From positions 1 through 64,000 of the forward strand of contig NZ_QVMN01000004.1 of assembly GCF_010501075.1 (NCBI RefSeq): 64,000 nt of DNA. Direction: 5' to 3'. This document shows, one piece after another, positions 5,707 through 32,774 of this stretch. A program made the translations under genes and the position numbers. The notes under the pieces were generated by a model. It saw only the letters and a program-made list of their open reading frames with translations, was not told where the DNA came from and searched no databases. This stretch comes from Dysgonomonas sp. 25. Lineage in GTDB: Bacteria > Bacteroidota > Bacteroidia > Bacteroidales > Dysgonomonadaceae. The stretch's first letter is position 1. Every line of letters starts with the position of its first letter.

Positions 5707-5710
5707 CAAA
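5698..5710 (+). repeat. Attachment-site repeat, copy 1 (tRNA 3' end)
   Basis: GTGGGACCACAAA overlaps the last nine bases of the tRNA gene. The same 13 bases recur at 24693 and the first 10 at 39839. This is the usual pattern when a tyrosine recombinase uses a tRNA 3' end as attB and restores the gene. Confidence 0.75.
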
Positions 5711-5741
5711 AGCCGAAGCCAAGATTCGGTCAAAATTAAGA

Positions 5742-5778
5742 AAAGCCTTCTAAATGTTTAATTTAGAGGGCTTTTTCA
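5742..5778 (+). terminator. Terminator behind the tRNA, brought in by element 1
   Basis: A 14-bp stem with one G-T pair (AAAGCCTTCTAAAT / ATTTAGAGGGCTTT) and a 5-nt loop is followed by TTTTT. It lies 35 nt inside the element and replaces the terminator displaced by integration. Confidence 0.85.
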
Positions 5779-8204: not shown

Positions 8205-8312
8205 ATGGAAAGTAACAATCAAAGAAAATGGAAAAAGGGAGGGCGAAAACCAAAGTTAGATCCTGCGGTTTATTTTATTGGTATTCTAAAAATTTATAAT
8301 GAATTATTTTGA
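8205..8312 (+). pseudogene. Truncated mobilization gene (5' remnant, BmgB/MobB-like)
   Basis: An ATG frame of 35 codons begins MESNNQRKWKKGGRKPKLDP, with a basic, GGRKPKLDPA-type start typical of small relaxosome proteins of Bacteroides mobilizable elements. Similarity stops at about Tyr23 (8271-8273); the remaining residues read through the 3' flank of the opposite-strand sensor gene, whose coding sequence ends at 8304. The junction between element backbone and fructan cargo therefore lies within about 30 bp. The identification rests on recollection of the family motif. Confidence 0.55.
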
Positions 8313-11012
8313 CTTAATGAATTCTGTAGGGCTAACTTTATAAAATTCTTTAAAACATTTTGTAAAATAAGAAGCTGAAGAGAATCCAGATTTATATGCA
8401 ATTTCGGAGATTGGCGTACCTGAAATAATCATTTGGGCAGCATATTTTAGTCTCAATATTCGAATAAACTCATTGGGTGAATATTCTGTTATAGACTTTA
8501 TTTTCCGATATAATTGTGACCGGGACAAACCCATATATTGCGCAACTTCAACTATATTCATATCTGGGTCTGTTATATTATCTTCTACATATTTTTGGAA
8601 TTTATTAATAAAAGATTGCTCTATTTCCGCCAAAGTCGTTTTCTTTGAATCACTAAGTAAATTGTTTGTAAATGCGTCTTTTATCTTTTGCCTGTTTTCG
8701 ATTAATCGATCTATTCTTATTTTCAATAACTGTGCATTAAATGGTTTTGGTATATATGCGTCAGCACCACTTTTAAATCCTTGAGCTTTTTGTTCATCCA
8801 AAGAACAAGCTGTAAGCAAGATTATAGGGATATGACTTGTAAATATATTTTCTTTTAGAGTGTTACAGACCTCAAAACCATCTATGCCCGGCATCATTAT
8901 ATCACAAATAATAATATCGGGTAAGAACTTTATGGATAGCTCAATTCCTGTGCTTCCATTATCAGCTTCAATTATTGTATAGTCTTTGTGTAATATCAAT
9001 CGCATATAATTCCGCATATCGACATTGTCATCTATAAGCAGAATAATCTTTTTATCTTCACTTAATATATTCTCAACAAATATTTTTTCCTGCATTGACT
9101 CCGCATCCGTTAGGAGCAAAGATTCGGCACTCCTGATTGCATGAGTATCACCAGATACTACTATATCTGTTAAATCCTGTTCATATGGAAGTAGAACATC
9201 GAACACTGTTCCTTTTCCTTCTATGCTTTCTACAGATATTACACCTTTATGCAAATCAACAAGCGAGTTTGTAAGAGCCAATCCTATTCCGGTACCTGAA
9301 TCTGTCGGATTAACTTTGTAAAACCTATTAAATATATTATTTATTTTATCTGGAGGGATAGCTTCTCCATCATTAAATACTGATAGTTTAAAATAGTCTG
9401 CATCATTATATTGGATTTTTGTAATATTTATATGAATACTTCCATCTTTTCTAGTATGTTTAAATGCATTTGACAAAAGATTAAAATATATCTTCTCTAC
9501 CTTTTCTTTATCAAAAGGAATAATATAATTATCATCATCTGTGGTAAAAGTGAAGTTTATGTGTTTTCTCTCTGCATAATCTAAGAAGGCAATATTTAAA
9601 TCCTCCAGAAATAACTTAATATCACCTTTTACAAACTGAATGTCTAATTTCCCATTTTCATATTTCCGGAATTCGATAATTTGAGAAAGTAGATTTAAAA
9701 GACTGTTACTACTTCTTTGGATGATTTCCAGTAATGCTTTTTGTTTTGCAGAAATATTTCCGGAATTTAAAAGTGTGTCTATTGGTCCCAGAATCAGAGT
9801 AAGTGGAGTACGGAATTCATGAGATATGTTTGTAAAGAAGACCAGTTTTGCATTCGTTGCTTCTTCCAATTGTTTAGACAAAGAAACCAATTGATTCTTT
9901 TGTTCTTCCAATAATCTGTTTGATTTACTTTTGTTCCGATATGCAAGGGCAGATACGACAAGTAGAATTGAAATCAACAGAAGTACAAGAATAGTACCAT
10001 AGAAAAGAGTTTGTTGATTAGAATATTGTTTAAGGCTTTCGTCTAAAAGTTCATTTATACGCTCTACTTTTTCCTGATGGTTTGTTATTTGTTCAGTTTG
10101 TAATTGGAGTACTCTGACGTTACTTCTATCAACTACTGCTGTATGCAGGATGTTTTCTTTAAGATATGGCTTATTTTGTAATATCTTTAATGCCAGATCA
10201 ATTATCTTATCTCCTCCTGTAGGGTAAATAAATGAAGCATTTTGTATCCCTTTTTCTATATTTTCCATACCACCGCCTTCACCTGGCAATGCATCAATTC
10301 CTATGATAAAAGGGAAACGCCCACTATAATTAGAAACAGCCTCATGTACCCCTAATGCCATCGGGTCATTCATAGCAAATACAAGATCAATTTCTTTAAA
10401 TGAATTCAGTATCTTGGTCATCTCTTTTTCGGAATCTTCTTTTAAAAAGTTTCCTCGGCATTCTGCAATAATTTTTATATCAGGATAATTTCTGATTCCA
10501 TCGATGAAGCCTGCATGTCTCTCTGCATCAGAGGTTGAGCCATTCCAACCTCTCATTTCAACAATATTTCCCTTGTTATTCAGTATGCCCGCTGTATATA
10601 TGCCTGCTTCTTTACCAATTTGATAATTATCTGCTCCTATATAAGCAGTGTAGTCTTCTGTATCAATTTTTCGATCAACAAGGATGACAGGAATCCCCAT
10701 GTTATACGCTTTCTGTACAACGGAGGTTATTGCAGTAGACTCATTTGGGGAAACAACTAATAAATCGACACCATTCTTTATTAATTCTTCAATATCTCTT
10801 ATCTGCTGTTGTGTATCGTCCTTAACAGTTTTTATATCAACTTCGATATTTTGATTGATAGAGGCTTCCAGTAAGATTTCGTTGTTCATTGTCCGCCTCC
10901 ATAAATCATCGCTGCATTGTGAAACTCCAATGATGTATTTACTCTTTTCTTCTCTATTGCAGGAACATAAGAGACTAAGTATAAGTATGAGTATAAGACA
11001 GGTTTTGTTCAT
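8304..11012 (-). CDS. Hybrid two-component sensor-regulator with periplasmic sugar-binding domain
   Basis: A single-chain sensor and transcription activator of 902 residues. The lipoprotein-like start ends ..LLCSC. Residues about 25-310 form a type-1 periplasmic binding domain (RbsB-like), one membrane helix lies near 336-358, and the histidine kinase has His398 (ISHEFRTPL) and an ATPase with GTGIGLAL. A receiver domain follows with Asp704 (ICDIMMPG), and the last 100 residues are an AraC-type DNA-binding domain. This layout is that of Bacteroides thetaiotaomicron BT1754, which senses fructose, so it probably switches on the adjoining GH32/SusCD genes in response to fructose. Its 3' end abuts the truncated mob gene. 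Confidence 0.93.
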   Translation of the reverse strand: MNKTCLILILILSLLCSCNREEKSKYIIGVSQCSDDLWRRTMNNEILLEASINQNIEVDIKTVKDDTQQQIRDIEELIKNGVDLLVVSPNESTAITSVVQKAYNMGIPVILVDRKIDTEDYTAYIGADNYQIGKEAGIYTAGILNNKGNIVEMRGWNGSTSDAERHAGFIDGIRNYPDIKIIAECRGNFLKEDSEKEMTKILNSFKEIDLVFAMNDPMALGVHEAVSNYSGRFPFIIGIDALPGEGGGMENIEKGIQNASFIYPTGGDKIIDLALKILQNKPYLKENILHTAVVDRSNVRVLQLQTEQITNHQEKVERINELLDESLKQYSNQQTLFYGTILVLLLISILLVVSALAYRNKSKSNRLLEEQKNQLVSLSKQLEEATNAKLVFFTNISHEFRTPLTLILGPIDTLLNSGNISAKQKALLEIIQRSSNSLLNLLSQIIEFRKYENGKLDIQFVKGDIKLFLEDLNIAFLDYAERKHINFTFTTDDDNYIIPFDKEKVEKIYFNLLSNAFKHTRKDGSIHINITKIQYNDADYFKLSVFNDGEAIPPDKINNIFNRFYKVNPTDSGTGIGLALTNSLVDLHKGVISVESIEGKGTVFDVLLPYEQDLTDIVVSGDTHAIRSAESLLLTDAESMQEKIFVENILSEDKKIILLIDDNVDMRNYMRLILHKDYTIIEADNGSTGIELSIKFLPDIIICDIMMPGIDGFEVCNTLKENIFTSHIPIILLTACSLDEQKAQGFKSGADAYIPKPFNAQLLKIRIDRLIENRQKIKDAFTNNLLSDSKKTTLAEIEQSFINKFQKYVEDNITDPDMNIVEVAQYMGLSRSQLYRKIKSITEYSPNEFIRILRLKYAAQMIISGTPISEIAYKSGFSSASYFTKCFKEFYKVSPTEFIKSK

Positions 11013-11042
11013 GGTGGATTTAATATAATAGGCAAATCTATA

Positions 11043-11079
11043 AAAAGCATCGTAATTAAAAGTTAAATACGATGCTTTT
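11043..11079. terminator. Terminator between fructokinase and sensor genes
   Basis: Stem AAAAGCATCGTA / TACGATGCTTTT with a 13-nt loop lies in the 72-bp gap after the leftward fructokinase stop. It separates the metabolic operon from the sensor gene, which then needs its own promoter in the same gap. Confidence 0.7.
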
Positions 11080-11084
11080 ATATT

Positions 11085-11969
11085 TTATTTCCTAAATAAT
11101 TCCAGGTAAGCATCCGGCAATTTAGGCATAGCACCATGTTGTGTACATACATAGGCTGATACCTCAACGGCTAACTGATGTGCGTTTGTGAGTCGTTGAC
11201 CGTGCAAATATGATGCAACAAAAGCAGCTGTAAAAGAATCTCCGGCACCGACAGTGTCTGCTACATGTACTGTTGGTGTTGGTTGATATGATGTTTCTTT
11301 GGGTGTAAATACAAAACTACCATTTGTTCCTTTTGTTAATACTATAATATCAAGTTCGTATTCTTCGAGTAAACGTTTACAGATTTCCTGTTCATCATTT
11401 TCTTTGTATCCGTACAACTGTGCGACTAAAACAATTTCTTCGTCATTAATTTTTAACATATTTGAAAGTTGCAAAGATTCATGTATCAATTCCTTAGAAT
11501 AAAAATGCTGGCGAAGATTTATGTCAAATATCTTTAAGCTGTTTTCAGGCATGCTTTTCAGAAACCTTTTAATAGTTTCTCTCGATACGCTGTTTCTTTG
11601 TGCCAAAGATCCAAAAGATACTGTCCCCGTATTTTTTGCCAGATTTTCGGTCTTGGCAGTAAAAGGAATATTGTCCCATGCCACGTTTTCACATATCTCA
11701 TATTCAGGAATTCCTTCCTTATTCAGTTTCACATTTACTGTTCCGGTAGGGTAATCTGTAGTCTCTATCAGGTAATTCAATTCTTTTTTTGCCAGGCATT
11801 CCAATATTTCCTTACCTAACAAATCATCTCCTACGGCACTTACGGCGTGACCGTTATATCCGAACTGCGATACATGGTATGCAAAATTTGCGGGGGCACC
11901 ACCCATCACTTTTCTTTCTGGGAAAATATCCCATAATATTTCTCCAAGTCCTACAATTGTATTATTCAT
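11085..11969 (-). CDS. Fructokinase (PfkB family)
   Basis: Cytoplasmic ATP-dependent sugar kinase of 294 residues, expected to phosphorylate fructose taken up by the neighbouring permease. The PfkB signatures are present: GGAPANFAYH near residue 22 and DTVGAGDSFTAAF with the catalytic base Asp244. It is the last gene of a leftward operon GH32-permease-kinase with 20-21 bp gaps, matching the order of the B. thetaiotaomicron levan locus. Confidence 0.92.
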   Translation of the reverse strand: MNNTIVGLGEILWDIFPERKVMGGAPANFAYHVSQFGYNGHAVSAVGDDLLGKEILECLAKKELNYLIETTDYPTGTVNVKLNKEGIPEYEICENVAWDNIPFTAKTENLAKNTGTVSFGSLAQRNSVSRETIKRFLKSMPENSLKIFDINLRQHFYSKELIHESLQLSNMLKINDEEIVLVAQLYGYKENDEQEICKRLLEEYELDIIVLTKGTNGSFVFTPKETSYQPTPTVHVADTVGAGDSFTAAFVASYLHGQRLTNAHQLAVEVSAYVCTQHGAMPKLPDAYLELFRK

Positions 11970-11989
11970 CGTTTATTTCTTTATTAGAT

Positions 11990-13165
11990 TTATTCAATAG
12001 AATTCATTTTATCTTTAATTCTGGTTGCTAAGAACAGAAGATAAATAACCCCAATACTCATAACTATCAAAGCTCCTATTTGAGAATTATTTAATGCTTT
12101 AGTTGCCTGTCCCATGAAAAAAGGAAATATAGTTCCGCCAAACAAGCCCATTATCATAAGTCCCGATATTTCGTTTTTCTTATTAGGCATGTAAAGCATT
12201 GCACGCGACAATATAACGGAAAATACATTGGAATTTCCAAAACCAATCAAACCTATACATGCACACAAAATAATTTCACCTTGCAGGAAGTAAAGCCCTC
12301 CCATGCCCAAAGCTATACAGAGTACACTTAACCCGAAAAACTTTTTCGCTGAATAACGTGCCAAGATGAAAGTTCCAATAAAGCAACCTGCAGTACGAAA
12401 GGCAAAATAAACGCTTGTTGCGTAATTGGCATCATCGAGATTTGTCAAGCCTAATCTTTCCATTAATATACGGGGAGAAGTGACATTAGTCCCGACATCA
12501 ATTCCCACATGGCACATGATACCTAGAAAACAGAGCAATATAACCCCATTTCCAAGAAGCTTAAAACATTCGGAGAATGTCGCACCTTTACCTTCTTCTT
12601 TCTGTTCATCAATACGGGTCATACCAAGCCATAATACTGTTATCACCGAAATTAATAGAAATAAGGGATAAATCATGCGCCAGTCATCAAACATTAATGA
12701 GGCCTTTGTTGCTATTAGCGGAGCACTGAACGATGCTATTGCTTTTACGAACTGTCCGAAGGTTAGGGAACTTGCCAGTTTATCACCTTTTACAATACTC
12801 GACAACAGAGGATTCAACGAAACCTGCATCAGGGTATTGCCTATTCCCAATAAAGAAAAGGTTATAATAAGCGATGTCTTGTCATACCATACAAACGGGA
12901 TTATCATTGACAAGGCAGTTACCAATAAGCTGATAATTACTGTTTTTTTTCTCCCGATTCGGGACATTAGTATTCCTGTAGGAACGGAAAATATAAGGAA
13001 CCAAAAGAAAACCATAGACGGAAATATATTTGCCGTAGCATCATCCAGTCCCAAATCTTTTTGTGCATAGTTGGTGGCAGTACCTACCATGTCGACAAAT
13101 CCCATACAGAAGAATGCAAGCATTATGGGAAGAATCTTTGTGTAAAATCCTTTATTATTAGTCAT
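11990..13165 (-). CDS. MFS sugar permease, probably for fructose
   Basis: Major facilitator protein of 391 residues with about 12 hydrophobic helices and the loop signature GILMSRIGRKKT between helices 2 and 3. It probably imports the fructose released by the periplasmic GH32 enzyme and hands it to fructokinase. It lies between the GH32 and kinase genes with gaps of 21 and 20 bp. Specificity is inferred from context only. Confidence 0.88.
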   Translation of the reverse strand: MTNNKGFYTKILPIMLAFFCMGFVDMVGTATNYAQKDLGLDDATANIFPSMVFFWFLIFSVPTGILMSRIGRKKTVIISLLVTALSMIIPFVWYDKTSLIITFSLLGIGNTLMQVSLNPLLSSIVKGDKLASSLTFGQFVKAIASFSAPLIATKASLMFDDWRMIYPLFLLISVITVLWLGMTRIDEQKEEGKGATFSECFKLLGNGVILLCFLGIMCHVGIDVGTNVTSPRILMERLGLTNLDDANYATSVYFAFRTAGCFIGTFILARYSAKKFFGLSVLCIALGMGGLYFLQGEIILCACIGLIGFGNSNVFSVILSRAMLYMPNKKNEISGLMIMGLFGGTIFPFFMGQATKALNNSQIGALIVMSIGVIYLLFLATRIKDKMNSIE

Positions 13166-13186
13166 GATTTTAATTATTTCAAAATA

Positions 13187-15382
13187 TTATTTAATCTTAT
13201 GGATAGTTATATCCTTGACATTGATATTACCTTCAAATTTCAAAGAGTTATAAGGTTCTGATGGGAATATAATGTTTGTAGAAACCAGTTCACCATCATT
13301 AACAAACAGTTCTGAAGATGCATTATCTATAAAGAGACGAATCTTATAAGTATTCTTTTGGGCTAGAGGTGCTTTTATTACTTTTAGTGCAAATTTTTCA
13401 CTAAAATCAGCAACTCCGCTTTTCGACCTATCTGTTAGAAGTTCTCCATCTTTCAAATTGAAAGAATATTTCAGTTGTTCTTTTCTCCGGTTTTCGAGTG
13501 TAAAACTAAATTTTTTTGCACTTCCGGCTTCTAAGGTCATTTCTACCTCATATGCCCCATCATTTTTATCTAGAAGTTTATCAATGGTATAAGTACTTTC
13601 TACCTGAATATCTTGCACTTTCTTCGATTCATTTCTTAAATTGACTATTTCCTTTACAGGAGGATTACTTATAACTAAATGTTCGCCATTGTGTGTAAGT
13701 TTTAATTCGCGAGGCAAAGTACTGGCACTTTTAAAATTGACTGTCGGCACTTCTCTTGCATAATCCCAGTTATTCATCCATCCAATAAAAATCCGACGAT
13801 TATCCGGAGCATCATTCCAAATAACACCGGCATAGTTATCCCGTCCATAGTCAAGCCATATAGGATAAGATAGTTTATCGGCTTTAAACGTTTTTCCATC
13901 AAAATCACCGATAAAATACTGGGTGGCACTTCCTCCATTAGGACCGCCAGGATTGATACTGACAAATAGTACCCATTTAGTTTTTCCATTATAAGTTAAA
14001 GGGAACAGGTCAGGGCATTCCCAAACTCCATCATGTCCACCAAGCCCCTCTCCAAATTCGCTCAGTTTCTCCCATTCTTTCAAATTTTTTGAACCATAGA
14101 ATGTTATGGTCTGTGAAGTAGCCAATGACATGACCCATTTTTGTGAAACTTCATGCCAGAACACTTTCGGATCACGGAAATCAACAATATTGGAATCTGT
14201 AAGTACAGGGTTTCCATTATATTTTGTAAAAGTTTGTCCATTATCCAGACTATAAGCAATGCTCTGGGTTTGCCTTTCAGCTGCGGATGTATAAATAGCG
14301 ACCATCGCGTTTTTTCCAAAACCGGCAGTGTTATTCTTATCGATGACCGCACTTCCTGAGAAAATAGCCCCCAGTGAATCCGGTGTTATCCCTTCTTGTT
14401 GATGTTCCCATTTAATAAGATCCTTAGATTCCGCATGCCCCCAACTCAAATTACCCCATAAAGAGCCATAAGGGTTATGCTGATAATACAAGTGATATTT
14501 TCCATTATGGTATACCATACCGTTGGGATCGTTCATCCAGCCATATTTAGGTGTAAAATGGTATGTTGGACGATATTTTTCATTAACATTAAAATGAAAG
14601 TCATCCGATTGCTTAATTTGAGAATATCCTATACTATTCTTATCTATATAAGAGAATACTAAATCTATATTATCACCTTTGTATCTCTCTATGTCTATTG
14701 GGACCCAATAGGATACCTCCGATTGGGCAATATTAATGTTCATAGGCACACCTTCTGCTTGTCCATTCACTATTAGTTGTGTACTTATTTCCGGAGCGGA
14801 ATCATCAATTGGAACCAAAATATATTTTTTATCTGCCTTGAAAGAAATTTTATGATCAATCATAACCGAACTTTTTTCCATATTGCTCATTATAATTTGG
14901 TCTACAAGGATATGCCCCCATCCTCCATCATGGTTATCTGTAATAAGTATCTTGGCTTTTTGACCCTTATATTGCCTAACATCCCATGTAGTCCATTGTA
15001 AAGTCTCACTATTTACGAGCGGAGAATTTTTATATATACTTTTACCATCTACCAATAATTCGATATATATATCACTACTCTTCCCTCCTCCCAGTAAGAA
15101 ATTGATATATTCCCGCTCAATTTTGAATTCAGAAGAACTTAATGACCCTTTTAGTTGGTCTCCTCCATTATAACTATTAGCCAGAAATTTTCCATAGAAA
15201 CCGTTTACTTCCTGTTGATTGGGGTATTTCCCTTGAGCCGGAGTAGTACCAAAAGCAGTTCCTTCTATTGTCCATTTATCATATGTTCCCGATTCAAAAT
15301 CGTCAATGACAATATCTTCCGATGAGCATCCGGTCATTATTATCAGTGAAGTGCAAAAAAGTAATCCTATTTTTTTTTTCAT
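13187..15382 (-). CDS. GH32 fructan hydrolase lipoprotein with extra N-terminal domain
   Basis: Fructofuranosidase of 731 residues. The lipobox IIMTGCSS ends a signal peptide, so the protein is anchored in a membrane. Residues about 25-265 form a beta-rich N-terminal region resembling the extra domain (DUF4980-type) of exo-acting Bacteroides GH32 enzymes. The five-bladed propeller begins at GWMNDPNGMVY with nucleophile Asp285. FRDPKVFW and the acid/base Glu of WECPDLF follow, then the C-terminal beta-sandwich. Its catalytic part is very similar to the second GH32 of this locus at 21924. Exo-action on released fructo-oligosaccharides is likely but inferred. Confidence 0.92.
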   Translation of the reverse strand: MKKKIGLLFCTSLIIMTGCSSEDIVIDDFESGTYDKWTIEGTAFGTTPAQGKYPNQQEVNGFYGKFLANSYNGGDQLKGSLSSSEFKIEREYINFLLGGGKSSDIYIELLVDGKSIYKNSPLVNSETLQWTTWDVRQYKGQKAKILITDNHDGGWGHILVDQIIMSNMEKSSVMIDHKISFKADKKYILVPIDDSAPEISTQLIVNGQAEGVPMNINIAQSEVSYWVPIDIERYKGDNIDLVFSYIDKNSIGYSQIKQSDDFHFNVNEKYRPTYHFTPKYGWMNDPNGMVYHNGKYHLYYQHNPYGSLWGNLSWGHAESKDLIKWEHQQEGITPDSLGAIFSGSAVIDKNNTAGFGKNAMVAIYTSAAERQTQSIAYSLDNGQTFTKYNGNPVLTDSNIVDFRDPKVFWHEVSQKWVMSLATSQTITFYGSKNLKEWEKLSEFGEGLGGHDGVWECPDLFPLTYNGKTKWVLFVSINPGGPNGGSATQYFIGDFDGKTFKADKLSYPIWLDYGRDNYAGVIWNDAPDNRRIFIGWMNNWDYAREVPTVNFKSASTLPRELKLTHNGEHLVISNPPVKEIVNLRNESKKVQDIQVESTYTIDKLLDKNDGAYEVEMTLEAGSAKKFSFTLENRRKEQLKYSFNLKDGELLTDRSKSGVADFSEKFALKVIKAPLAQKNTYKIRLFIDNASSELFVNDGELVSTNIIFPSEPYNSLKFEGNINVKDITIHKIK

Positions 15383-15511
15383 GGTTTAATTAATAAGTTT
15401 ATAATATTGATTGAAGAAATTTTTAGCCAAAGATTTAAAGTCCTATCCTTCTTTACAAAGGAATAATTAATGCTACAATAATGCTATAACAGATGTTGCC
15501 AACGATTGTAG

Positions 15512-15553
15512 AAATGTTGCATCTATTTTATTTTCTCATGCATTGCAACATTT
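15512..15553. promoter_or_regulatory. Inverted-repeat operator candidate between the divergent fructan operons
   Basis: AAATGTTGCA (15512-15521) and TGCAACATTT (15544-15553) form a perfect 10-bp inverted repeat. A related GATGTTGCC lies at 15492. The site sits between the leftward GH32 operon and the rightward susC operon, where the AraC domain of the hybrid sensor would be expected to bind. Confidence 0.5.
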
Positions 15554-15601
15554 TTACATATATCTGAAACATCCCTTACATAAGGAAGACTTAATTCCAT
15601 A

Positions 15602-15609
15602 TAGTTTTG
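15602..15609 (+). promoter_or_regulatory. -7 box of the fructan susC operon
   Basis: TAGTTTTG fits TAnnTTTG. It argues against translation starting at a TTG at 15607 inside the box. A leader of about 40 nt would lead to the ATG at 15655. Confidence 0.5.
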
Positions 15610-15654
15610 TACAACCATGAAATTAATATGTTAAATAATAAATTTAATTACCAA

Positions 15655-18600
15655 ATGGAAAAACAAACTCACATTCTTAAATTGAAATGTTGTATTTCAA
15701 TATTTTTCTTATTTGTTCTTCCTTCACTTGCTTTTTCTCAAACAAAGGAAGTAACAGGGGTTGTTACTCTGGCAGAAGACGGTTTGGGTGCAATAGGAGT
15801 CAGTGTTGTTGAAAAGGGAACAACAAATGGAACAGTTACAGATATTGAAGGAAAGTATCGGATTCAATTAACAAAAGAATCAGCCACCCTGGTCTTCTCT
15901 ATGGTTGGAATGATAGCACAAGAAAAAACTGTTAGCCATGGAGACGTCGTTGATGTTGTTTTATCTGAAAACCAACAATTATTAAATGAGATAGTTGTAA
16001 CAGGGTATACATCTCAACGAAAAGCAGATCTGACAGGAGCTGTATCAGTTGTATCTATTGATGAGATAAAGAAAGTAGCTGAAAATAATCCTATGAAAGC
16101 TCTACAAGGAAAAGTTGCCGGTATGATGGTAACTACTGATGGTAATCCGAGTGGGGCTTCTACTATTCGTATACGTGGGATAGGCACATTGAACAATAAT
16201 GATCCCCTATATATAATAGATGGTGTGCCAACCAAAGCTGGCATGCATGAATTGAACTCTGCGGATATAGAAAGTATTCAGGTTCTTAAAGATGCTTCAT
16301 CAGCAAGTATATATGGTTCGCGAGCGGCCAATGGTGTTATAATTATCACAACCAAACAAGGGAAAAAGGGAAAAGTTAAGATCGATTTCAATGCAGGTGT
16401 TACCACCTCAAAATACACCACCAAGATGGATATGCTAAATACCCAAGAATATGGTCGGATGATGTGGCAAGCAGAAGTAAATGCAGGGAAAGATCCCAAT
16501 GCCAATGCGATAGGTTATACTTACGACTGGGGATATGATGCCAATGGAGTAGCAGTACTCAATAAAGTCATATTACCCGAATACGTAGTGGGAAGTGGAA
16601 ATATAATGCGTACAGCAAACACTGATTGGTTTGATCAAATAACAAGAACAGGTGTTATGCAGAACTATGATATGTCGGTAAGTAGCGGTACCGATAATGG
16701 TAGTTATTTCTTTTCGTTGGGATATCTTACTAATGAAGGGGTGATCAAAAATAGCGATTTCGACCGAATTTCAGCCCGCATGAATACTTCATACAAATTA
16801 TTCGACGGGATAGTAACAATAGGGGAAAACTTTACACTTAATAGAACCAGTGAGATACAAGCACCCGACGGTATTCTGAATACCGCATTACAAGCCTTGC
16901 CTATGTTACCCGTTTATACAGAATCGGGGGGATGGGGAGGTCCTGTGGGAGTAATGAATGACCGGCAAAATCCTGTAAGATTAGTTGAAGCCGTAAAAGA
17001 TAATAGATATTCATATTGGAGAACTTTTGGTAATGCATTTCTGGCCGTTAATCCAATTGAAGGATTGGATTTGAGAACTAATTTTGGGCTTGACTATGGG
17101 AATTATTATAAACGTGATCTTGTCCGAAAATATCAATCAGGGAAATTAGAGAGTGATGTTAATTCAGTAAACTTAAACCAAGGACATTGGCTAAAATGGA
17201 ATTGGAATGCGATTGCATCTTACAATATTACAGTAGGTAAACATAGAGCAGATGCAATGTTAGGAGTAGAAGCCTTTAGAGAAGAAAATGTCAATTTCAA
17301 CTCATATCGTGAAGGCTTTGAACTTGAAACACCTGAATATATGTGGCCTGATGTAGGTACAGGGAAATCAATTGCTGGCGGTAACTCTACAGCATATACC
17401 TTGTTATCCTTTTTTGGTAAGGTTAATTATTCATTCGATGATCGTTATCTTGCTTCGGTAACCTTGCGTCGCGATGGCTCATCACGTTTCGGTAAGAATA
17501 ATAAATATGGAACTTTTCCTGCATTTTCTTTAGGATGGCGTTTAAGCGAAGAAGCTTTCATCAAGAACAATATAAATAACATCTCGGATCTGAAGTTACG
17601 TTTAGGATGGGGACAAACAGGAAACCAAGAAATAAGCAATACAGCCATATATAATATATACGTACCTGATTATGGAACTGCTGATCCTACATGGGGAACG
17701 GTGCATAGTACATCTTATGACATTGGCGGAACAGGATCGGGACAATTACAGTCTGGATTTAAACGTACACAACTTGCTAATGATAACCTGAAATGGGAAA
17801 CAACTACACAAACCAATATTGGTCTCGACTTTGGTTTTTGGGAACAAAAACTTTACGGGTCAGCAGAATATTACATGAAGAAGACCAAAGATATCCTAGT
17901 GCTTCCACCCTATCTTGCTGCGATAGGAGAAGGTGGAAATCGTTGGGTAAATGGTGCTTCAATGCAAAACTGGGGAATGGAATATTCGGTAGGTTATCGA
18001 AACAAATTACCATTTGGTTTAGAATATGATATTACAGGTAATCTTTCTTTATATAGAAATGAAATGACTTATTTGCCCGAAGATGTAGAAAATAACTATG
18101 GAGGAGTAGCCGGAAATAATATATTGGGACATCCTATTAATTCTTTATTCGGATATGTTGCAGATGGATTATTTAAAACGCAGGAGGAGGTAGATAATGC
18201 CGCCCAGCAACCAGGAAAAGGACTCGGACGTATTCGTTACAAAGATCTAAATGGGGATGGAGTAATTGATAATGATGACAGGACATGGATTGGCGTACAA
18301 CATCCCGATTTTATGTATGGACTAAATGTCAACTTTAGTTATAAAGGCTTTGATTTAACTATGTTCTGGCAAGGAATCCATAACATAGACGTCGTAAATG
18401 ATCAAAAATACCATACTGATTTTTGGAGTGTAAGCGAAACAGGCTCCAATAAAGGACGCCGACTATTAAATGCATGGAGCCCAACAAATGTAAATAGCAA
18501 CATTCCGTCTGTGACATCTCTGAATACAAATGATGAAGGACGTTTTTCCACTTACTTCATAGAAAATGGTTCATATTTAAAATTAAGAATGTTACAAGTC

Positions 18601-18783
18601 GGATATACATTTCCTACACATATCACAAGAAAATTCTATGCAAACCATTTAAGACTGTATATAAGTGGACAAAATCTATGGACGATTAAAAGTAAAAGTT
18701 TCACAGGGGTAGATCCAGAAAGCCCTCAATTTGGTTATCCTATACCAAGAACGTTTACTGTCGGGTTAAATGTCTCATTCTAA
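15655..18783 (+). CDS. SusC-like TonB-dependent outer-membrane receptor (fructan locus)
   Basis: Outer-membrane importer of about 1042 residues. It has a signal peptide ending ..LAFSQ, a carboxypeptidase-regulatory-like domain (about 40-120), the plug with the conserved LYIIDGVP segment, and a beta-barrel ending in the aromatic strand FTVGLNVSF. It pairs with the SusD gene 22 bp downstream to take in fructo-oligosaccharides under TonB power. Two other in-frame starts exist (15607 and 15628). I chose 15655 because the following residues MEKQTHILKL give a clean signal peptide and the promoter box overlaps the earliest start. Confidence 0.93.
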   Translation: MEKQTHILKLKCCISIFFLFVLPSLAFSQTKEVTGVVTLAEDGLGAIGVSVVEKGTTNGTVTDIEGKYRIQLTKESATLVFSMVGMIAQEKTVSHGDVVDVVLSENQQLLNEIVVTGYTSQRKADLTGAVSVVSIDEIKKVAENNPMKALQGKVAGMMVTTDGNPSGASTIRIRGIGTLNNNDPLYIIDGVPTKAGMHELNSADIESIQVLKDASSASIYGSRAANGVIIITTKQGKKGKVKIDFNAGVTTSKYTTKMDMLNTQEYGRMMWQAEVNAGKDPNANAIGYTYDWGYDANGVAVLNKVILPEYVVGSGNIMRTANTDWFDQITRTGVMQNYDMSVSSGTDNGSYFFSLGYLTNEGVIKNSDFDRISARMNTSYKLFDGIVTIGENFTLNRTSEIQAPDGILNTALQALPMLPVYTESGGWGGPVGVMNDRQNPVRLVEAVKDNRYSYWRTFGNAFLAVNPIEGLDLRTNFGLDYGNYYKRDLVRKYQSGKLESDVNSVNLNQGHWLKWNWNAIASYNITVGKHRADAMLGVEAFREENVNFNSYREGFELETPEYMWPDVGTGKSIAGGNSTAYTLLSFFGKVNYSFDDRYLASVTLRRDGSSRFGKNNKYGTFPAFSLGWRLSEEAFIKNNINNISDLKLRLGWGQTGNQEISNTAIYNIYVPDYGTADPTWGTVHSTSYDIGGTGSGQLQSGFKRTQLANDNLKWETTTQTNIGLDFGFWEQKLYGSAEYYMKKTKDILVLPPYLAAIGEGGNRWVNGASMQNWGMEYSVGYRNKLPFGLEYDITGNLSLYRNEMTYLPEDVENNYGGVAGNNILGHPINSLFGYVADGLFKTQEEVDNAAQQPGKGLGRIRYKDLNGDGVIDNDDRTWIGVQHPDFMYGLNVNFSYKGFDLTMFWQGIHNIDVVNDQKYHTDFWSVSETGSNKGRRLLNAWSPTNVNSNIPSVTSLNTNDEGRFSTYFIENGSYLKLRMLQVGYTFPTHITRKFYANHLRLYISGQNLWTIKSKSFTGVDPESPQFGYPIPRTFTVGLNVSF

Positions 18784-18805
18784 ACAATCTAATAATAATA
18801 TAATT

Positions 18806-20491
18806 ATGAAAAAAATATATTTATCCATATTAGCCGTTTTATTTTTGGTCTTTAGCAGCTGCTCTGATTTTCTAAACGAAAAGCCAAATGGAATCTTAGA
18901 TGACGATGATATATCAGGGCTTGACCAGATTGAAAAAAATGTGATTTCAGCATATTCGATGTTAGGCAATGACCATTATGATACCCCATTCAATCTTTGG
19001 CCATATGGAAATGTGCGTTCCGATGATGCATATAAAGGTGGGCGTGACGAATCAGATATTCAAGCATTCCATTTCTACGAAACCTCAAGTAATATTGTTC
19101 CTACATTCGGAGAACCGGATGCTCTCTTCTATAATTGTTATATAGCTATTTCACGTATAAATAATGCTATACGTGTGCTCAATTCTGTATCAGAAAACGA
19201 GTTTGAAATGAAAAATAGGAGATTAGGCGAATGTCGTTTCCTTCGAGGACATTTCTATTTTTTACTGAAGACTATGTTTAAGAATGTACCTTACATTGAC
19301 GAAGCAGTACCAACCGATGCTTATGGTACAATATCGAATGTAGAACTTACAAATGATGAATCATGGGCGAAAATAGCAGCGGATTTTGAATTTGCTTATA
19401 AAAATTTGCCTGATGTGCAACCAGAGATAGGACGCGCAAACAAATATGCTGCTGCAGCTTACTTAGCGAAGGTATATTTATATAAAGCATATCGTCAAGA
19501 CGAAAAGCATAATGTTACAAGTATTGATACAGATGATTTGGATCAGGTATTAATATATACTGCCGCTGTAATAGGTTCATCATATGATCTTGCTCCCGAT
19601 TTTGCGCATAATTTTCTTCCTGGAAAAAATATATACGAAAATGGTATTGAAGCTCTTTTTTCTATTCAGTTTTCAAAGGATGATGGCACAAGTAAAGGCC
19701 GGTTAAATTTCAGTGATGCACTTAACGTACCCCTAAATACATCGGGCGCATGCGATTTTCAAAAGCCGAGTCAGAATCTGGTAAATGCGTTTAAAACGAA
19801 AAACGGATTACCTGATTTTAATTCATACAATTTAGCTGACTATGATGCAAGTACAGATAATGCAGATCCTCGCTTATATCATACGGTTGCAATGGTTGGA
19901 TACCCATATAAATACGATTTAGGAAATATCTTCGAGACAGGGCATAACAGAAATCCCGGCGTATATGGTTATTACTCTTCGTTGAAAGAAAATGTAAAGG
20001 TAGGAGACGAGTCATCAGTTCTGATTGATCCCTTCCGAGCAAATACAAAGAATAGAATAATTATTCGTTATGCAGATGTACTATTGATGCGTGCTGAAGC
20101 TTTGATAGAACTCAACAGGGAAGGGGAGGCTCTGCCACTGATAAATGAAGTAAGGATGCGTGCTAAAAACAGCATCGCTCTTATTCCTTATGCTACGAAT
20201 ATTGATATGGCATTATATGCTAACGATGCAACCTGGACAAACTCATATGCACGGACAGCCTTACGTTGGGAAAGACGCCTTGAGTTTGCCATGGAAGGAA
20301 GCCGCTTCTTTGATTTAGTTCGTTGGGGAATCGCGGATAGTGTGCTGAATGCATATTATGAAAACGAGAAATCAAAACGTCCTTATTATGAAGGTGCACA
20401 TTTCGATAAAAACAAAGAGGAGTATGTACCTATTCCTCAACAACAAATAAACTTCAGCAAGAATGTGTACAAACAAAATTATAACTATTAA
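18806..20491 (+). CDS. SusD-like surface glycan-binding lipoprotein (fructan locus)
   Basis: Lid protein of the SusC/SusD pair, 561 residues. The lipobox VFSSCSDF follows a short signal sequence. Helical TPR-like repeats and the RagB/SusD C-terminal block ALRWERRLEFAMEGSRFFDL are plain. It caps the receptor encoded just upstream and binds fructan chains at the cell surface. The start at 18806 was preferred over an upstream in-frame ATG at 18770 because it begins the signal peptide MKKIYLSILAV directly. Confidence 0.93.
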   Translation: MKKIYLSILAVLFLVFSSCSDFLNEKPNGILDDDDISGLDQIEKNVISAYSMLGNDHYDTPFNLWPYGNVRSDDAYKGGRDESDIQAFHFYETSSNIVPTFGEPDALFYNCYIAISRINNAIRVLNSVSENEFEMKNRRLGECRFLRGHFYFLLKTMFKNVPYIDEAVPTDAYGTISNVELTNDESWAKIAADFEFAYKNLPDVQPEIGRANKYAAAAYLAKVYLYKAYRQDEKHNVTSIDTDDLDQVLIYTAAVIGSSYDLAPDFAHNFLPGKNIYENGIEALFSIQFSKDDGTSKGRLNFSDALNVPLNTSGACDFQKPSQNLVNAFKTKNGLPDFNSYNLADYDASTDNADPRLYHTVAMVGYPYKYDLGNIFETGHNRNPGVYGYYSSLKENVKVGDESSVLIDPFRANTKNRIIIRYADVLLMRAEALIELNREGEALPLINEVRMRAKNSIALIPYATNIDMALYANDATWTNSYARTALRWERRLEFAMEGSRFFDLVRWGIADSVLNAYYENEKSKRPYYEGAHFDKNKEEYVPIPQQQINFSKNVYKQNYNY

Positions 20492-20503
20492 TATCTAAGA
20501 ATT

Positions 20504-21913
20504 ATGAAACTAAAATATTATGTGTTCAGTTTACTCTCGTTAGCTTTATTGCTGAGTGGGTGTTACGATCGTGACATTGATTCGGATGATGCCAAAGTAG
20601 CTCCATTATCCAATTTAGAATATCGAATAGATGATGATACTTTAAGAGTGGAATGGATTTTACCAAATCAGAATGATTTGAGTGTGAAAGTATCGTCAGA
20701 TGCCGAAACTAAAGTTATATCCAACAATCCTACATCCTATAAATATGGTGTAGTAAAGGTGGGAAAGGAATATAAATTCACATTTAATGTGCTTGATAAA
20801 GAAGGAAATATATCTACTGGGCAAACAATTTATTTTACACGCGAAGGAAGCTCATCTATCAATGGCCTAACGGCACGTCAAAAGGATGGCGCCAAGACAG
20901 TTGTATTAACATGGGAGCTTCCCGATGAAAAAATAAGTAAAATAGAAGTAAGATATGATGGTACTAAAATAGAGTTGCCGGGAAGTGCTACAACTTATTC
21001 TTTGGAAAACGCATCCGAAAAAGTGTACACAATAGGTGTAGTGAGTTTCGATGAAAAAGGTAATTCTTCCGAAACGGTTTATACTACTATCAGAGTAGGA
21101 AGTACCAAAATTGCGTTTCTGGGGGATGCCGCGACTTACAATATGTTTCTTGCTACTGCTGACGATGATGAAATAGCAGCAGGAAAATGGTTCTTTGAAA
21201 CCTATCCAACAGGAACCTATCTATCATTTGAGAATGTGAAAGCAGGAACTGATTTAACTCAATATCGTGTCATTTGGTGGATACGCGATGCTCAATCCCC
21301 GAGATCGTTATTGCCTGCAATATCTTTGGAGGAAACTGTAATTAGTGCAATGAAGAAATATTACACTGATGGAGGAAATTTGTTGTTGAACACACATGCA
21401 ACAAATTACTTGTGGACGATGGGACGCATGAAGTCTAATTTTAATTCAGAAATAGAAATGGGTGGAGGTTTTGACAATGGAGATGTATGGCATGTAAATG
21501 TTAGTATCGGAAAAGTTCATGATGAATCAGAACACCCTATATATAAAGGGTTGTCACATATTCTGTTAGATGGTAAAAAATGTATTCCGCTTATAGGTTC
21601 TGGATGGAAAGAAAATCATAATAATATATGGAAAGATATCTGTGATTTTTATGGATATGGCAATACTGATGAGAATGGATATATTAAGATATCAGAAGAT
21701 AATCAAATAAAAATACTGGGTACATGGGACGGTATAAATGACTATTGGATGATGGCTAATTTTGAAGCCTATCCAAATGCAGAGTTTAAAGGGACTTCTA
21801 TTGCTATTGGTATTGGAGCTTTTGAATGGAATCAAAATAATGGAAGAAATATCTATCAGGATAACATTGAGAAAATTACATATAATGCATTAGAGTATTT
21901 GAAAACTAAATAA
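20504..21913 (+). CDS. Surface glycan-binding lipoprotein (DUF4960-like, BT1761-type)
   Basis: Lipoprotein of 469 residues (lipobox LLLSGCYD). Two fibronectin/Ig-like repeats (about 30-110 and 115-200) are followed by a larger C-terminal domain (about 205-469) rich in Trp, Tyr and Asn, with IRDAQSP and GGFDNGDVWHV segments. It sits between SusD and the GH32 endo-enzyme, the position of the levan-binding protein BT1761 in B. thetaiotaomicron. Binding of fructan is inferred from position and general form; there is no catalytic motif. Confidence 0.75.
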   Translation: MKLKYYVFSLLSLALLLSGCYDRDIDSDDAKVAPLSNLEYRIDDDTLRVEWILPNQNDLSVKVSSDAETKVISNNPTSYKYGVVKVGKEYKFTFNVLDKEGNISTGQTIYFTREGSSSINGLTARQKDGAKTVVLTWELPDEKISKIEVRYDGTKIELPGSATTYSLENASEKVYTIGVVSFDEKGNSSETVYTTIRVGSTKIAFLGDAATYNMFLATADDDEIAAGKWFFETYPTGTYLSFENVKAGTDLTQYRVIWWIRDAQSPRSLLPAISLEETVISAMKKYYTDGGNLLLNTHATNYLWTMGRMKSNFNSEIEMGGGFDNGDVWHVNVSIGKVHDESEHPIYKGLSHILLDGKKCIPLIGSGWKENHNNIWKDICDFYGYGNTDENGYIKISEDNQIKILGTWDGINDYWMMANFEAYPNAEFKGTSIAIGIGAFEWNQNNGRNIYQDNIEKITYNALEYLKTK

Positions 21914-21923
21914 AATCGATATT

Positions 21924-23435
21924 ATGAAAGATAAAATTACTAATAGTCTCATGTTATCAATAATTGGGGTAATATGCTTTTTCTCATCCTGTTCTGATGA
22001 TTATTCAAATGACTATTATAAAGACAATAATACCTATAATGACGAACCATATCGTCCATCCATTCATTTTACACCAGAAAAATATTGGATGAACGATCCC
22101 AACGGAATGGTTTATTTGGATGGTGAATATCATCTCTTTTATCAATATAATCCATATCGCTCTTTTTGGGGAAATTTGAGTTGGGGACATGCTGTCAGTA
22201 AAAATCTTATCAACTGGGAGCATCTGCCAACAGCTCTTTTCCCTGATAAATCAGGGGATATATTCTCCGGTTCTGCGGTTATTGATAAAAATAATACTGC
22301 GGGTTTTGGAGAAAATGCGATGATTGCTATTTACACCTCTTCCGGGGCCAGACAAAATCAATCTCTTGCCTATAGTCTTGATAAAGGAAGGACTTTCACA
22401 AAATATGAAGCTAATCCTGTACTTACTGACGAAAATATCATAGATTTCCGTGATCCGAAAGTCTTCTGGCATAAAGAGACAAATAAATGGGTTATGTCAT
22501 TGGCTACTTCACAGACTATAACATTCTATGGTTCAAAGAACTTGAAAGAATGGGAAAAACTGAGTGAATTCGGAGATGGTATTGGTGGGCATGGAGGGGT
22601 CTGGGAATGCCCAGACTTGTTCCCATTGACTTATAACGGGCAAACAAAATGGGTGTTGTTAGTAAGCATAAATCCCGGAGCACCGAATGGAGGTTCAGGT
22701 ACGCAATATTTTATTGGAGACTTTAATGGAACTACATTTAAAGCAGATAATATGTCCTATCCGCTTTGGCTGGATTACGGCAAAGACAACTATGCAGGTG
22801 TTACATGGAATAATATTCCAGAAAGTGATGGCAGACGCATATTCATAGGATGGATGAGTAATTGGCAATATGCCGAGGCTGTACCAACAATGACATGGCG
22901 AAACGGGGCAACATTACCCCGAACTCTAACATTAAAATCTCATCCGGATGGTTATCCTGTACTAACGTCTGAGGTTGTGAGTGAATTAGATGAAATAAGT
23001 GAAGAATGGGTTCCCTTATCAAATTCTGAAGAGGCGTATCATTTAGATGTTGATAATAAAGCATATCAACTAGAGATTAATATGGCCATTCCTGCTTCAA
23101 ATACTACTATCCTTAAACTTTCAAATGATGCAAAGGAAGAGTTTGTTATAACAATAGATAGAGATGCGACTGAATTCAGGACAGATAGAACGAAATCGGG
23201 TAAAGTAAATTTTTCCAGCAATTTTCCAAGTATTAATACAGCTCCACTTTATGTTAATTCTGAAAATATTACATTGACATTAATTGTCGACAATAATTCT
23301 ATTGAAGCGTTTATAAATGGAGGTATAGTTCAACAAACAAATCTAATATTTCCACAAAAGCTTTATAATGCCATCAATATATCAGGAACAACATCACATT
23401 CTTTAAAAATTAAGAAGTTTAATTCTATTTATTAA
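21924..23435 (+). CDS. GH32 fructanase lipoprotein, probably surface endo-levanase-like
   Basis: Lipoprotein of 503 residues (lipobox ICFFSSCSDD) made of a GH32 propeller and beta-sandwich without an extra N-terminal domain. The nucleophile is Asp58 (YWMNDPNGM), FRDPKVFW holds the transition-state stabiliser, and the acid/base is Glu228 (WECPDLF). It has the same length and position as the B. thetaiotaomicron endo-levanase BT1760, so it probably cuts long fructan at the cell surface before SusCD import. Levan versus inulin cannot be decided by eye. It is a paralogue of the GH32 at 13187. Confidence 0.9.
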   Translation: MKDKITNSLMLSIIGVICFFSSCSDDYSNDYYKDNNTYNDEPYRPSIHFTPEKYWMNDPNGMVYLDGEYHLFYQYNPYRSFWGNLSWGHAVSKNLINWEHLPTALFPDKSGDIFSGSAVIDKNNTAGFGENAMIAIYTSSGARQNQSLAYSLDKGRTFTKYEANPVLTDENIIDFRDPKVFWHKETNKWVMSLATSQTITFYGSKNLKEWEKLSEFGDGIGGHGGVWECPDLFPLTYNGQTKWVLLVSINPGAPNGGSGTQYFIGDFNGTTFKADNMSYPLWLDYGKDNYAGVTWNNIPESDGRRIFIGWMSNWQYAEAVPTMTWRNGATLPRTLTLKSHPDGYPVLTSEVVSELDEISEEWVPLSNSEEAYHLDVDNKAYQLEINMAIPASNTTILKLSNDAKEEFVITIDRDATEFRTDRTKSGKVNFSSNFPSINTAPLYVNSENITLTLIVDNNSIEAFINGGIVQQTNLIFPQKLYNAINISGTTSHSLKIKKFNSIY

Positions 23436-23590: not shown

Positions 23591-24227
23591 ATGAAACAAT
23601 TAATGAATTCGAGATTATTTCTACTATTAACGAAAGCCTCAAAAGAGAAAGATGTATTAACGGAGTTAACAAAAGCCTATGACGAATTTGCACTAAAGTT
23701 ATTAGACAAACTACAGATTGAATCAAACATCGCAAAGCTGTATTATCACCTTGGCTTTGTACGTTTGGAACTTGTCGGAATACGAGACGGGTTATCCGAT
23801 AAGGAGGAAAAAAAATGCCTTAAAATATACAATCAAGGCAATCTCTCTTATTGATATAGAACTGAGGATTTTGCAATGGCAATTACAGAATAATAGCAAT
23901 AAAGGAAATCAAAAAGAAAAAAAATCAGAACAAGACCTTCATTGGACCGGAACGGCTGCCGATTTGGTAGAATTTGCATATGGTGCTCTGGAAACTAAGA
24001 AATTTGAGAATGGGGAAATAGATATTAATCTATTGATTGAAATCCTCTGTCAACTATTCTCTTTTGAAGTAAAAGATTGTTACGATACTTTCCGTGCTAT
24101 TCGACGAAGAGTCGGAAGCCGTACTCTCTTTCTTGATGAAATGATTGAAAAGTTAAACGAAAGAATGGATAATATGGATAACGGTATTTTTAAGAAAAAG
24201 AAGATCCGAAGAAAAATAAATGATTGA
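23591..24227 (+). pseudogene. RteC-like regulator, frameshifted at an A8 tract
   Basis: Two overlapping frames make one protein: residues to about 78 are in the first frame (MKQLMNSRLFLLL..), and the rest continues in the +1 frame as LKYTIKAISLIDIELRIL. The switch coincides with eight A at about 23809-23816. The C-terminal half (LHWTGTAADLVEFAYG.. to SRTLFLDEMIEKLNERMD) matches the pattern of RteC, which controls excision and transfer genes of CTnDOT-like elements. It is shorter at the N-terminus than RteC. A sequencing error, phase-variable tract or true decay are all possible. Confidence 0.7.
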
Positions 24228-24692: not shown

Positions 24693-24705
24693 GTGGGACC
24701 ACAAA
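24693..24705 (+). repeat. Attachment-site repeat, copy 2 (junction of elements 1 and 2)
   Basis: GTGGGACCACAAA is identical to copy 1 over 13 bases. With the bases before it, CAGGTGGGACCAC (24690-24702) is identical over 13 bases to copy 3 at 39836-39848. It is therefore the shared boundary of both elements. The rest of the tRNA is not duplicated here. Confidence 0.75.
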
Positions 24706-24714
24706 TAAGTATCG

Positions 24715-24755
24715 AAAACCCTTGTAAGACAAGATCTTGCGAGGGTTTTTCTTTT
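24715..24755 (+). terminator. Terminator just inside element 2
   Basis: AAAACCCTTG (24715-24724) pairs with CGAGGGTTTT (24740-24749), enclosing the palindrome CAAGATCTTG and followed by a T-rich run. As at the other two att copies, a terminator follows the attachment core within about 50 nt. Confidence 0.75.
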
Positions 24756-24767
24756 TTAGTGACCACG

Positions 24768-24782
24768 TCCGTGCCCTTTTTT
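24768..24782 (+). repeat. End repeat of element 2, left copy
   Basis: TCCGTGCCCTTTTTT lies 65 nt inside the left boundary. TCCAGTGCCCTTTTT occurs at 39708-39722 near the right boundary. This is a possible recombinase arm site. The rest of 24783-25196 holds no gene I can support. Confidence 0.4.
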
Positions 24783-25196
24783 GAAATCTCCAAATATTCG
24801 CATTATGTGCTGTAATATAGCTTTTTACAGACTAAAATACTCTAATATCCTTTCTTTTCGAATAAGTTAGGCAGTTTGGCTTATGTTGGTAATGAAGCAT
24901 TAATTTGGGGGCTCTCTCGGAGACCGCAGTGCCCAAAAGAGTGGAATGTAGTTCCCTTTCCTCTTTCCTTCCCCCTCCCTTCAAAACCATGCATGAATAT
25001 CCTCACACATACAAGCAGGTCACGTTTTCGGGCTCTTTGTTTGTTTACTTTTAAGAGCTTGATTGTTAACAAGGAGTTTCAATAGCTGGTTAAGGTCTAT
25101 ATCGAGATATAACTGCAAGCTGAACTAACTCTGTCCTATCAAGTTAGGTTCTGGTATTCAATCAGGCAACTGATGCTGATAAATATTGAAAAAGAC

Positions 25197-26204: not shown

Positions 26205-26220
26205 GCTCTCTTGTTAAATC

Positions 26221-26233: not shown

Positions 26234-26359
26234 TGTCCTTAATTTGACAATTAACCTCTTATATTCAAATTATTTGCCAGCAATCGAAACTGATACCTGA
26301 CTCATACAAGAGAATGTTTGTTAACTTATTTTCCTTAATAGTGCTGACTGACAGATTAT

Positions 26360-32772: not shown

Positions 32773-32774
32773 AA

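Follow-up and report, generated by a model that had tools for sequence, protein, structure and literature searches.

A fructan utilization locus as the probable cargo of a compact integrative element at a tRNA-Met gene of Dysgonomonas

Introduction

A set of genes for the use of fructan, found beside a tRNA gene in Dysgonomonas sp. 25, raises two questions: whether it has travelled between species as the cargo of an integrative element, and which fructan it serves. We addressed both in a single stretch of DNA of 64,000 nucleotides (contig NZ_QVMN01000004.1, positions 1 to 64,000), which we call the window; the segment holding the locus is referred to as element A. Carriage of polysaccharide utilization loci (PULs) on integrative elements is already known, since porphyran, agarose and carrageenan PULs are described on integrative or mobilizable elements in the available text of PMC8845570, and 47 SusC/SusD loci on elements in that of PMC6907783; a preliminary description of the window likened the horizontal carriage of this PUL to such cases in principle. 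Three genomes are named throughout by code: G000, the window's own (Dysgonomonas sp. 25), G024, a second species, and G013, a third.

Results

Gene content of the locus

The eight locus genes listed in the preliminary description were all recovered among the ORFs and by Pfam, as follows.

8304..11012, minus strand: hybrid two-component sensor/AraC regulator (HTCS) with a periplasmic sugar-binding domain (Pfam; PDB 2x7x, E 1.3e-88)
11085..11969, minus strand: PfkB-family kinase, probable fructokinase (Pfam; inside a Dysgonomonas-family clade)
11990..13165, minus strand: MFS permease, probable fructose importer (Pfam; 86% to G018)
13187..15382, minus strand: GH32a, a GH32 enzyme with DUF4980 (Pfam; among Dysgonomonas-family enzymes in FastTree)
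15607..18783, plus strand: SusC-like transporter, BT1763 homologue, with its start probably further in (PDB 5t3r_D, 1332 bits)
18770..20491, plus strand: SusD-like protein, BT1762 homologue, likely start 18806 (PDB 5lx8_A, 494 bits)
20504..21913, plus strand: surface glycan-binding protein (SGBP) with fn3 and DUF4960 (Pfam; PDB 8aa2_T, 64 bits)
21924..23435, plus strand: GH32b, a second GH32 with a lipoprotein-type start and without the BT1760-like C-terminal domain (Pfam, FastTree)

The susC-susD-SGBP-GH32 block is thus divergent from the GH32-MFS-kinase-HTCS block. On the model of B. thetaiotaomicron, the surface proteins would bind and cut fructan, SusC and SusD would import the oligosaccharides, GH32 would release fructose, and the permease and kinase would take it into the cell, while the sensor would switch the locus on as periplasmic fructose rises. 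At E<=1e-60 the window's SusD has one match in G000, namely itself, and one further strong GH32 (249 bits) lies elsewhere in that genome, so that the island may be its only route to polymeric fructan. G024 carries an extra locus on contig C102, where a SusD (47%) is accompanied by two GH32 genes, one strong and the other of 90 bits, a score near the 98-112 bits of BT1760-type enzymes.

Comparison with levan and inulin PULs

The locus had been described as the same set as the BT1754-BT1765 levan PUL of B. thetaiotaomicron. We compared the two through PDB chains only, since among the 80 loci retained from a scan of genome contigs with two short peptide patterns none was titled B. thetaiotaomicron, and took 2x7x to be the BT1754 sensor and 8aa2_T to be BT1761. 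The equation stands only in part: an HTCS with a fructose-sensor-like domain, a kinase, a permease, GH32, SusC, SusD and a DUF4960 surface protein are common to element A and the levan PUL of strain VPI-5482, as described in the available parts of PMC5967196 and PMC7782687. It breaks down over the enzymes and the arrangement, as the levan PUL has three GH32 genes (BT1759, BT1760 and BT1765; PMC5967196, available text), whereas element A has two, lacks a BT1760-type surface endo-levanase, follows another, divergent order in two blocks, has altered pocket residues in SusD and SusC and is located on an integrative element. PF16346, the domain of BT1760-type endo-levanases, was absent by Pfam from both GH32 proteins of element A and present in 4/4 enzymes of relatives that were scanned, and in a FastTree phylogeny GH32b fell outside the branch of 17 BT1760-type rows and grouped with enzymes from Marinilabilia and Paludibacter. 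As for gene order, eight loci of the Dysgonomonas family (G002, G006, G011, G018, G045, G046, G048 and G050) are one-stranded as far as fetched, reading SusC-SusD-SGBP-BT1760-type GH32-GH32a-MFS-PfkB-HTCS. Two further loci, L056 and L078 (labelled Bacteroides sp. 214 and 51), have the divergent GH32-permease-kinase / SusC layout of element A and retain the BT1760-type enzyme.

Gray et al. (PMC7782687, in the portion available) list D41, N43, D67, W85, C298, C299, R368 and Y395 as the contacts of BT1762 with levan oligosaccharide, and the residues named there fall on matching letters of the solved transporter chains. The window SusD has H, D, D, G, A, C, R and F at these eight positions; the first residue of its vicinal cysteine pair, equivalent to C298, is therefore alanine in element A. 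Among 92 SusD rows (three contigs counted twice, and row L042 a poor match), 31 have the same letters as the window except for Cys in place of this Ala, and 87 keep the vicinal pair, of which 38 have a BT1760-type gene nearby and 49 do not. Judged from these rows, loss of the pair in the two element A copies is unusual and is no marker of substrate class. In the same source (PMC7782687, available text), the C298A substitution in BT1762 abolished levan binding in vitro, and W85A likewise abolished binding yet caused no growth defect, so that the effect of the Cys-to-Ala change is not predictable. In SusC of element A, Gln stands for D383 and Glu for N901, a combination also present in the loci of Anaerophaga and Marinilabilia; position 901 is Asp in 9/9 other Dysgonomonas-family loci for which it was printed. 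Three candidate markers were discarded in the course of this comparison: the vicinal pair as a sign of a levan locus, since it is kept with and without BT1760-type genes; W85, which is not conserved in most of the 92 rows; and the 383Q/901E combination of SusC, which also occurs both with and without BT1760-type genes.

Could the cargo nonetheless be a levan locus equivalent to BT1754-BT1765? The features expected of such a locus include a fructose-sensing HTCS, for which the sensor's closest PDB relative, 2x7x, speaks (the sensing itself being predicted), and a SusD and SusC like BT1762 and BT1763, which element A has, with the solved levan transporter chains as their closest PDB matches at 494 and 1332 bits. 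Set against these, the BT1760-type endo-levanase is absent, the DUF4960 surface protein is distant from its solved levan-system counterpart (64 bits to 8aa2_T), the Cys298 equivalent is alanine and SusC residues 383 and 901 differ, and on this balance we consider a levan locus of that kind rather unlikely.

An inulin PUL offers a second comparison. Joglekar et al. (PMC5967196) report, in the text available, that the SusC/SusD pair of B. thetaiotaomicron strain 8736 confers inulin use on the type strain, that earlier work found a surface levanase to be critical for levan, and that the 8736 inulin PUL is without orthologues of BT1760 and BT1761. Element A resembles the latter in being a fructan PUL without a BT1760 orthologue, but has a DUF4960 protein and a lipoprotein-type GH32, a distinction drawn from the published description of the 8736 PUL. 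With a 2x7x-like sensor, a SusC and SusD resembling levan transporters and two GH32 enzymes, fructan is the likely substrate class; levan use by the locus is doubtful, and an inulin-type fructan is a fair guess at the substrate.

Origin of the cargo genes

Gene phylogenies, proposed in the preliminary description as a check on horizontal origin, covered PfkB, MFS, the GH32 enzymes, SusC and SusD and gave a divided answer. PfkB, MFS and GH32a fall among sequences of the Dysgonomonas family (GH32a in FastTree). SusC and SusD are nearest by identity to Anaerophaga (63-64%) and fall outside the main Dysgonomonas clade (for SusC in FastTree only); in the SusD tree most Dysgonomonas-family loci form a clade that leaves out the window and G024, but an AU test, with the group named after the tree had been seen, does not reject their placement within that clade (p 0.25). 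This pattern hints that the locus may be mosaic in origin or simply old. Integrase-like genes also lie near fructan loci of Draconibacterium orientale (L131 208-1383) and of Flavobacteriaceae UBA6231 (L073 17138-20900), and no tRNA was found in either stretch.

Element A and its near-identical copy in a second species

Outside the locus genes, element A and its integration site comprise the following features.

5633..5707, plus strand: tRNA-Met(CAT), the integration site, whose 3' end is the left att core (ARAGORN, Rfam; also found in relatives)
5698..5707, plus strand: att core copy 1, left end of element A (exact 10-mer; identity with G024 begins here)
5740..5776, plus strand: terminator-like hairpin just inside the left end of element A (consensus scan)
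5989..7197, plus strand: tyrosine recombinase of element A, with arm-binding, SAM-like and catalytic domains (Pfam; adjoins the left end)
8205..8312, plus strand: mobC remnant, gene start only (homology with the intact MobC_2 gene of G013)
23591..24227, plus strand: rteC, split over two frames (Pfam RteC; alignment; identical split in G013)
24693..24702, plus strand: att core copy 2, right end of element A and left end of element B (identity with G024 contig C133 stops here)

Element A is bounded by directly repeated copies of the 3' end of the tRNA, at 5698 and 24693; it extends over 19.0 kb (about 5698-24702) and comprises the recombinase, the mobC remnant, the fructan locus and rteC. The psd (phosphatidylserine decarboxylase) gene and a CDP-alcohol phosphatidyltransferase gene lie upstream of the tRNA-Met, which is the only structured RNA that Rfam found in the window at gathering scores.

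When 101 genomes of the family were searched with the SusD, 31 gave a match at E<=1e-60; besides the window's own protein, only that of G024 reached 99%, the next best standing at 61%. Window positions 5691-23540 aligned with G024 contig C14 at 99.2% over 17,863 columns, and positions 23565-24702 with the start of contig C133 at 1,135/1,138 identical bases (3 differences). Identity between G000 and G024 starts and stops at the cores, and the sequence directly outside them differs. Both G024 contigs break in IS-like sequence with inverted ends. In G024 the copy lies 18.7 kb downstream of the same tRNA, with another element, element X, in between, and its right core is followed by sequence which, judged by eye, resembles what flanks the tRNA in G010 and G021. 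Element X (~18.7 kb; L039 3176-20000 and L040 1-1829; contig C14) has an integrase-like gene, a gene with a protein kinase domain and one with DUF5053 that also matches a methylase weakly; left ends resembling its own come after the tRNA in G016 and G013 as well.

The two host genes beside the tRNA share 72.6% and 62.3% DNA identity between G000 and G024 (dS 2.35 and 2.88), and a 20-kb stretch of the window's chromosome matched G024 at 66-81% in the pieces found, some of which are possibly paralogues. For nine genes of element A, in contrast, pS was 0.026, pN 0.0025 and pN/pS 0.095, with 88 synonymous and 31 other changes; all nine ORFs are full length in both copies (SusD counted from its second start), and the substitution pattern fits purifying selection. 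Simple vertical inheritance is ruled out by the contrast between a host dS of 2.3-2.9 and an element pS of 0.026, and the earlier proposal that the locus has moved horizontally as a unit gains support from a copy at 99.2% downstream of the same tRNA in hosts so far diverged. Taken with the anatomy of its ends, the copy makes it very probable that element A is a compact integrative element carrying the fructan utilization locus as cargo.

The two copies differ by 138 substitutions and a 13-base indel. These SNPs are unevenly spread, with 27 in the left 9.5 kb and 111 in the right 8.35 kb, and their density steps up near 15.2 kb (about 15190), by the divergent promoter region; parts of element A would thus differ in age, recombination also having acted. 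The same abrupt change could be read as a sign that the locus was passed on through homologous recombination, either between chromosomes or between att arrays, with the integrase a bystander, and large chromosomal transfer between Bacteroides is described in the available text of PMC8845570. Such an origin is nevertheless improbable, as G000 and G024 differ in sequence immediately beyond the cores and the breakpoints fall within the cores at both ends, and an integrative element remains our preferred reading.

Two elements in tandem

The locus had been assigned to a single tRNA-integrated island. It does lie downstream of tRNA-Met in low-GC DNA (0.309-0.397 per 2-kb window from 6 to 40 kb vs 0.389-0.473 outside), but the 10 terminal tRNA-Met bases occur in three exact copies in the window (5698, 24693 and 39839), on the plus strand only, and because of this threefold repeat the island is to be seen as two tandem elements, with the fructan locus inside the first. 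The features of the second are given below.

24703..39838, no strand assigned: element B, second in tandem (cores on both sides)
24714..24750, plus strand: terminator-like hairpin just inside the left end of element B (consensus scan)
29453-29977, plus strand: ArdA
34330-35679, minus strand: recombinase of element B
36399-39590, plus strand: type IIG restriction-methyltransferase
39839..39848, plus strand: att core copy 3 (tRNA-Met flank-like sequence of relatives resumes after it)

Element B also has a DUF6591 gene, DUF3987 and HTH_17 matches and a weak InsA-like match below the cut-off. Beyond the third core, the sequence resembles the tRNA-Met flank of G019 and G003. In both elements, the hairpin near the left end occupies the place of the tRNA's own terminator. 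Terminator-like sites were little in excess of shuffled sequence (14 vs 10.5), so that these two hairpins rest on position and shape; promoter-like sites in the same comparison were no commoner than in shuffles (86 vs 84.8).

A single 34-kb island (5.7-39.85 kb), its middle repeat a chance match, would agree with the unbroken low GC, and in G013 the 54 bases past the right core are similar to the beginning of element B. It is very improbable and was rejected, since the middle core is exact, the identity with G024 stops there and gives way to other sequence, the long near-identical match to 23.4-39.85 kb among the G024 matches ends at this core, and the third core and a G024 copy of element A without element B adjoining it both speak for two elements. 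That the G024 copy is an assembly artefact or cross-contamination between two draft genomes, each the only one of its species examined, is scarcely credible given the 138 substitutions and the indel, the joining of each copy to its own host's tRNA region on contigs of 312 kb and 256 kb, and the extra insertion in G024.

Distribution and a sister element with another cargo

The integrase of element A is 100% identical in G024 and 94% in G013, the next in the 101 family genomes standing at 65%, and no further one above 65% at E<=1e-130 was found in 393 genomes drawn from the order (G013 not among these). NCBIfam gave no named match above cut-off for this protein. At 10 other tRNA-Met loci of the genus, one exact core only is present, followed by other sequence (stretches of 0.2 to 19 kb), which in G016 is the left end of another element. 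The preliminary description had held that finding the locus at the same place without repeats and integrase in all relatives, with congruent phylogeny, would count against it; what relatives display is an integrase at >=94% identity in 3/101 genomes and single cores at those 10 loci. Element A has a recombinase at one end and flanking repeats and is present or absent as a unit, in the manner of a tRNA-integrated element.

The G013 sister element has a 94% identical integrase, rteC and a MobC_2 gene that, at 146 aa, is intact there; its right end is like that of element A and runs to a core at 20711 of contig C4. At the DNA level, the two are 87% identical in the integrase region, 95.5% at the mobC start, 85% and 76% in the rteC segment and 91% at the right end. 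The cargo in G013 is another PUL, with a sigma factor, FecR, SusC, SusD, a SusE-like surface protein, GH53, GH2 and further genes, and by its GH53 and GH2 looks like a galactan locus. The rteC segment is inverted between the elements, and probably the whole interior is as well; the same split of rteC in both suggests that their common ancestor probably already had it. The left core in G013 follows a 3' fragment of tRNA-Met and not the whole gene (ARAGORN found no tRNA there), and the intact tRNA-Met lies on contig C79, followed by an element X-like left end 1.5 kb before the contig ends; a tandem placement at the same tRNA-Met is likely for this element.

No SusC or SusD was detected in 22 loci around integrases at 50-65% identity (five of them under 9 kb), while TraG or TraM, from a protein picked by length, was confirmed in 8/8 loci of relatives at 50-56%. 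Carriage of a PUL thus appears to mark the close integrase group (3/3 members found, a small number), and since G013 shares the backbone but has another PUL, the unit is, as far as these genomes indicate, a small integrative element with exchangeable PUL cargo.

Backbone genes and mobility

Mobilization-gene debris had been noted at both borders of the locus. On the left this is borne out by the start of mobC at 8205, whose homology to the intact G013 gene fades by ~8.3 kb; the debris on the right is rteC and not a mobilization gene. RteC is a regulator of transfer. Its gene is split alike in the window (23591-24227) and in G013 (L164 2999-3638), with an unusually conserved stretch around the split, which can be read either as shared decay or as a programmed shift. 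Between the integrase and mobC, in a stretch with little homology to G013, a 24-base inverted repeat, its arms 150 apart (7820-8017), looks like a small MITE.

Our library scan of 5.7-24.7 kb covered ORFs of at least 100 aa. These comprise the integrase, rteC, the eight genes of the locus and two ORFs that lie antisense within locus genes, and no relaxase, conjugation or type IV secretion genes were found among them. Element A has neither the type IV secretion and relaxase of an integrative conjugative element nor the relaxase of an integrative mobilizable element, the window holding the start of mobC only, and none of 12 scanned proteins of the G013 element, which has a full mobC, was a relaxase. 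With a truncated mobC, a split rteC and no relaxase, element A may now be immobile. Four full-length TraG genes lie elsewhere in G000 (contigs C11, C7 and C58), so that several conjugative elements appear to be present there, one lies in G024, and G013 has pieces; these genes make transfer of element A in trans possible, and as it has no relaxase or transfer genes of its own, this is probably how it moved. Near-match searches with element A gave one 94-base match in plasmids and none in phages, and one scan of viral contigs with the integrase found a single relative, at 54%.

From this anatomy, the recombinase would insert the element, as a circle, at the 3' end of tRNA-Met or, alternatively, at a core left there by an earlier element; integration would keep the tRNA whole and supply a new terminator. 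Passage from cell to cell would be effected in trans by Tra-type conjugative elements of the same genomes.

Discussion

The data presented here provide a clear case of the recent passage of a whole fructan locus from one species to another at a defined tRNA site, and elements of this type can pass whole diets between bacteria. Exchange of cargo between integrative elements thereby becomes directly testable outside human Bacteroides, and the altered SusC and SusD, together with the replaced endo-enzyme, amount to a natural experiment on levan versus inulin specificity. A broader interpretation, possible but held tentatively, is that element A and its G013 sister are minimal PUL shuttles, with a fixed backbone (recombinase, mobC, decayed rteC and tRNA-Met cores) and a swapped interior, mobilized in trans by resident conjugative elements; Dysgonomonas species would thereby share a pool of diets that are interchangeable at tRNA-Met. 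The version with the fructan locus would then add a transporter for a different fructan linkage to hosts that perhaps have a levan-type locus of their own, as seems to be the case for G024. In the literature examined, we met no small tRNA-element backbone with two different whole PULs and no report of an integrative element with a fructan locus in Dysgonomonas, the latter a weak negative as subscription papers lay mostly outside the coverage.

Among known systems, the CTnDOT-type conjugative transposons of Bacteroidales have the same class of tyrosine recombinase, rteC and mobC as element A, which, unlike them, is without tra genes or relaxase and has a split rteC and a truncated mobC. Like the PULs described in the available text of PMC8845570 and PMC6907783, element A carries a whole PUL as the cargo of an integrative element in Bacteroidota; it differs from those described there in its size of 19 kb, its lack of transfer genes, its host, Dysgonomonas, and the occurrence of two PULs on one backbone.
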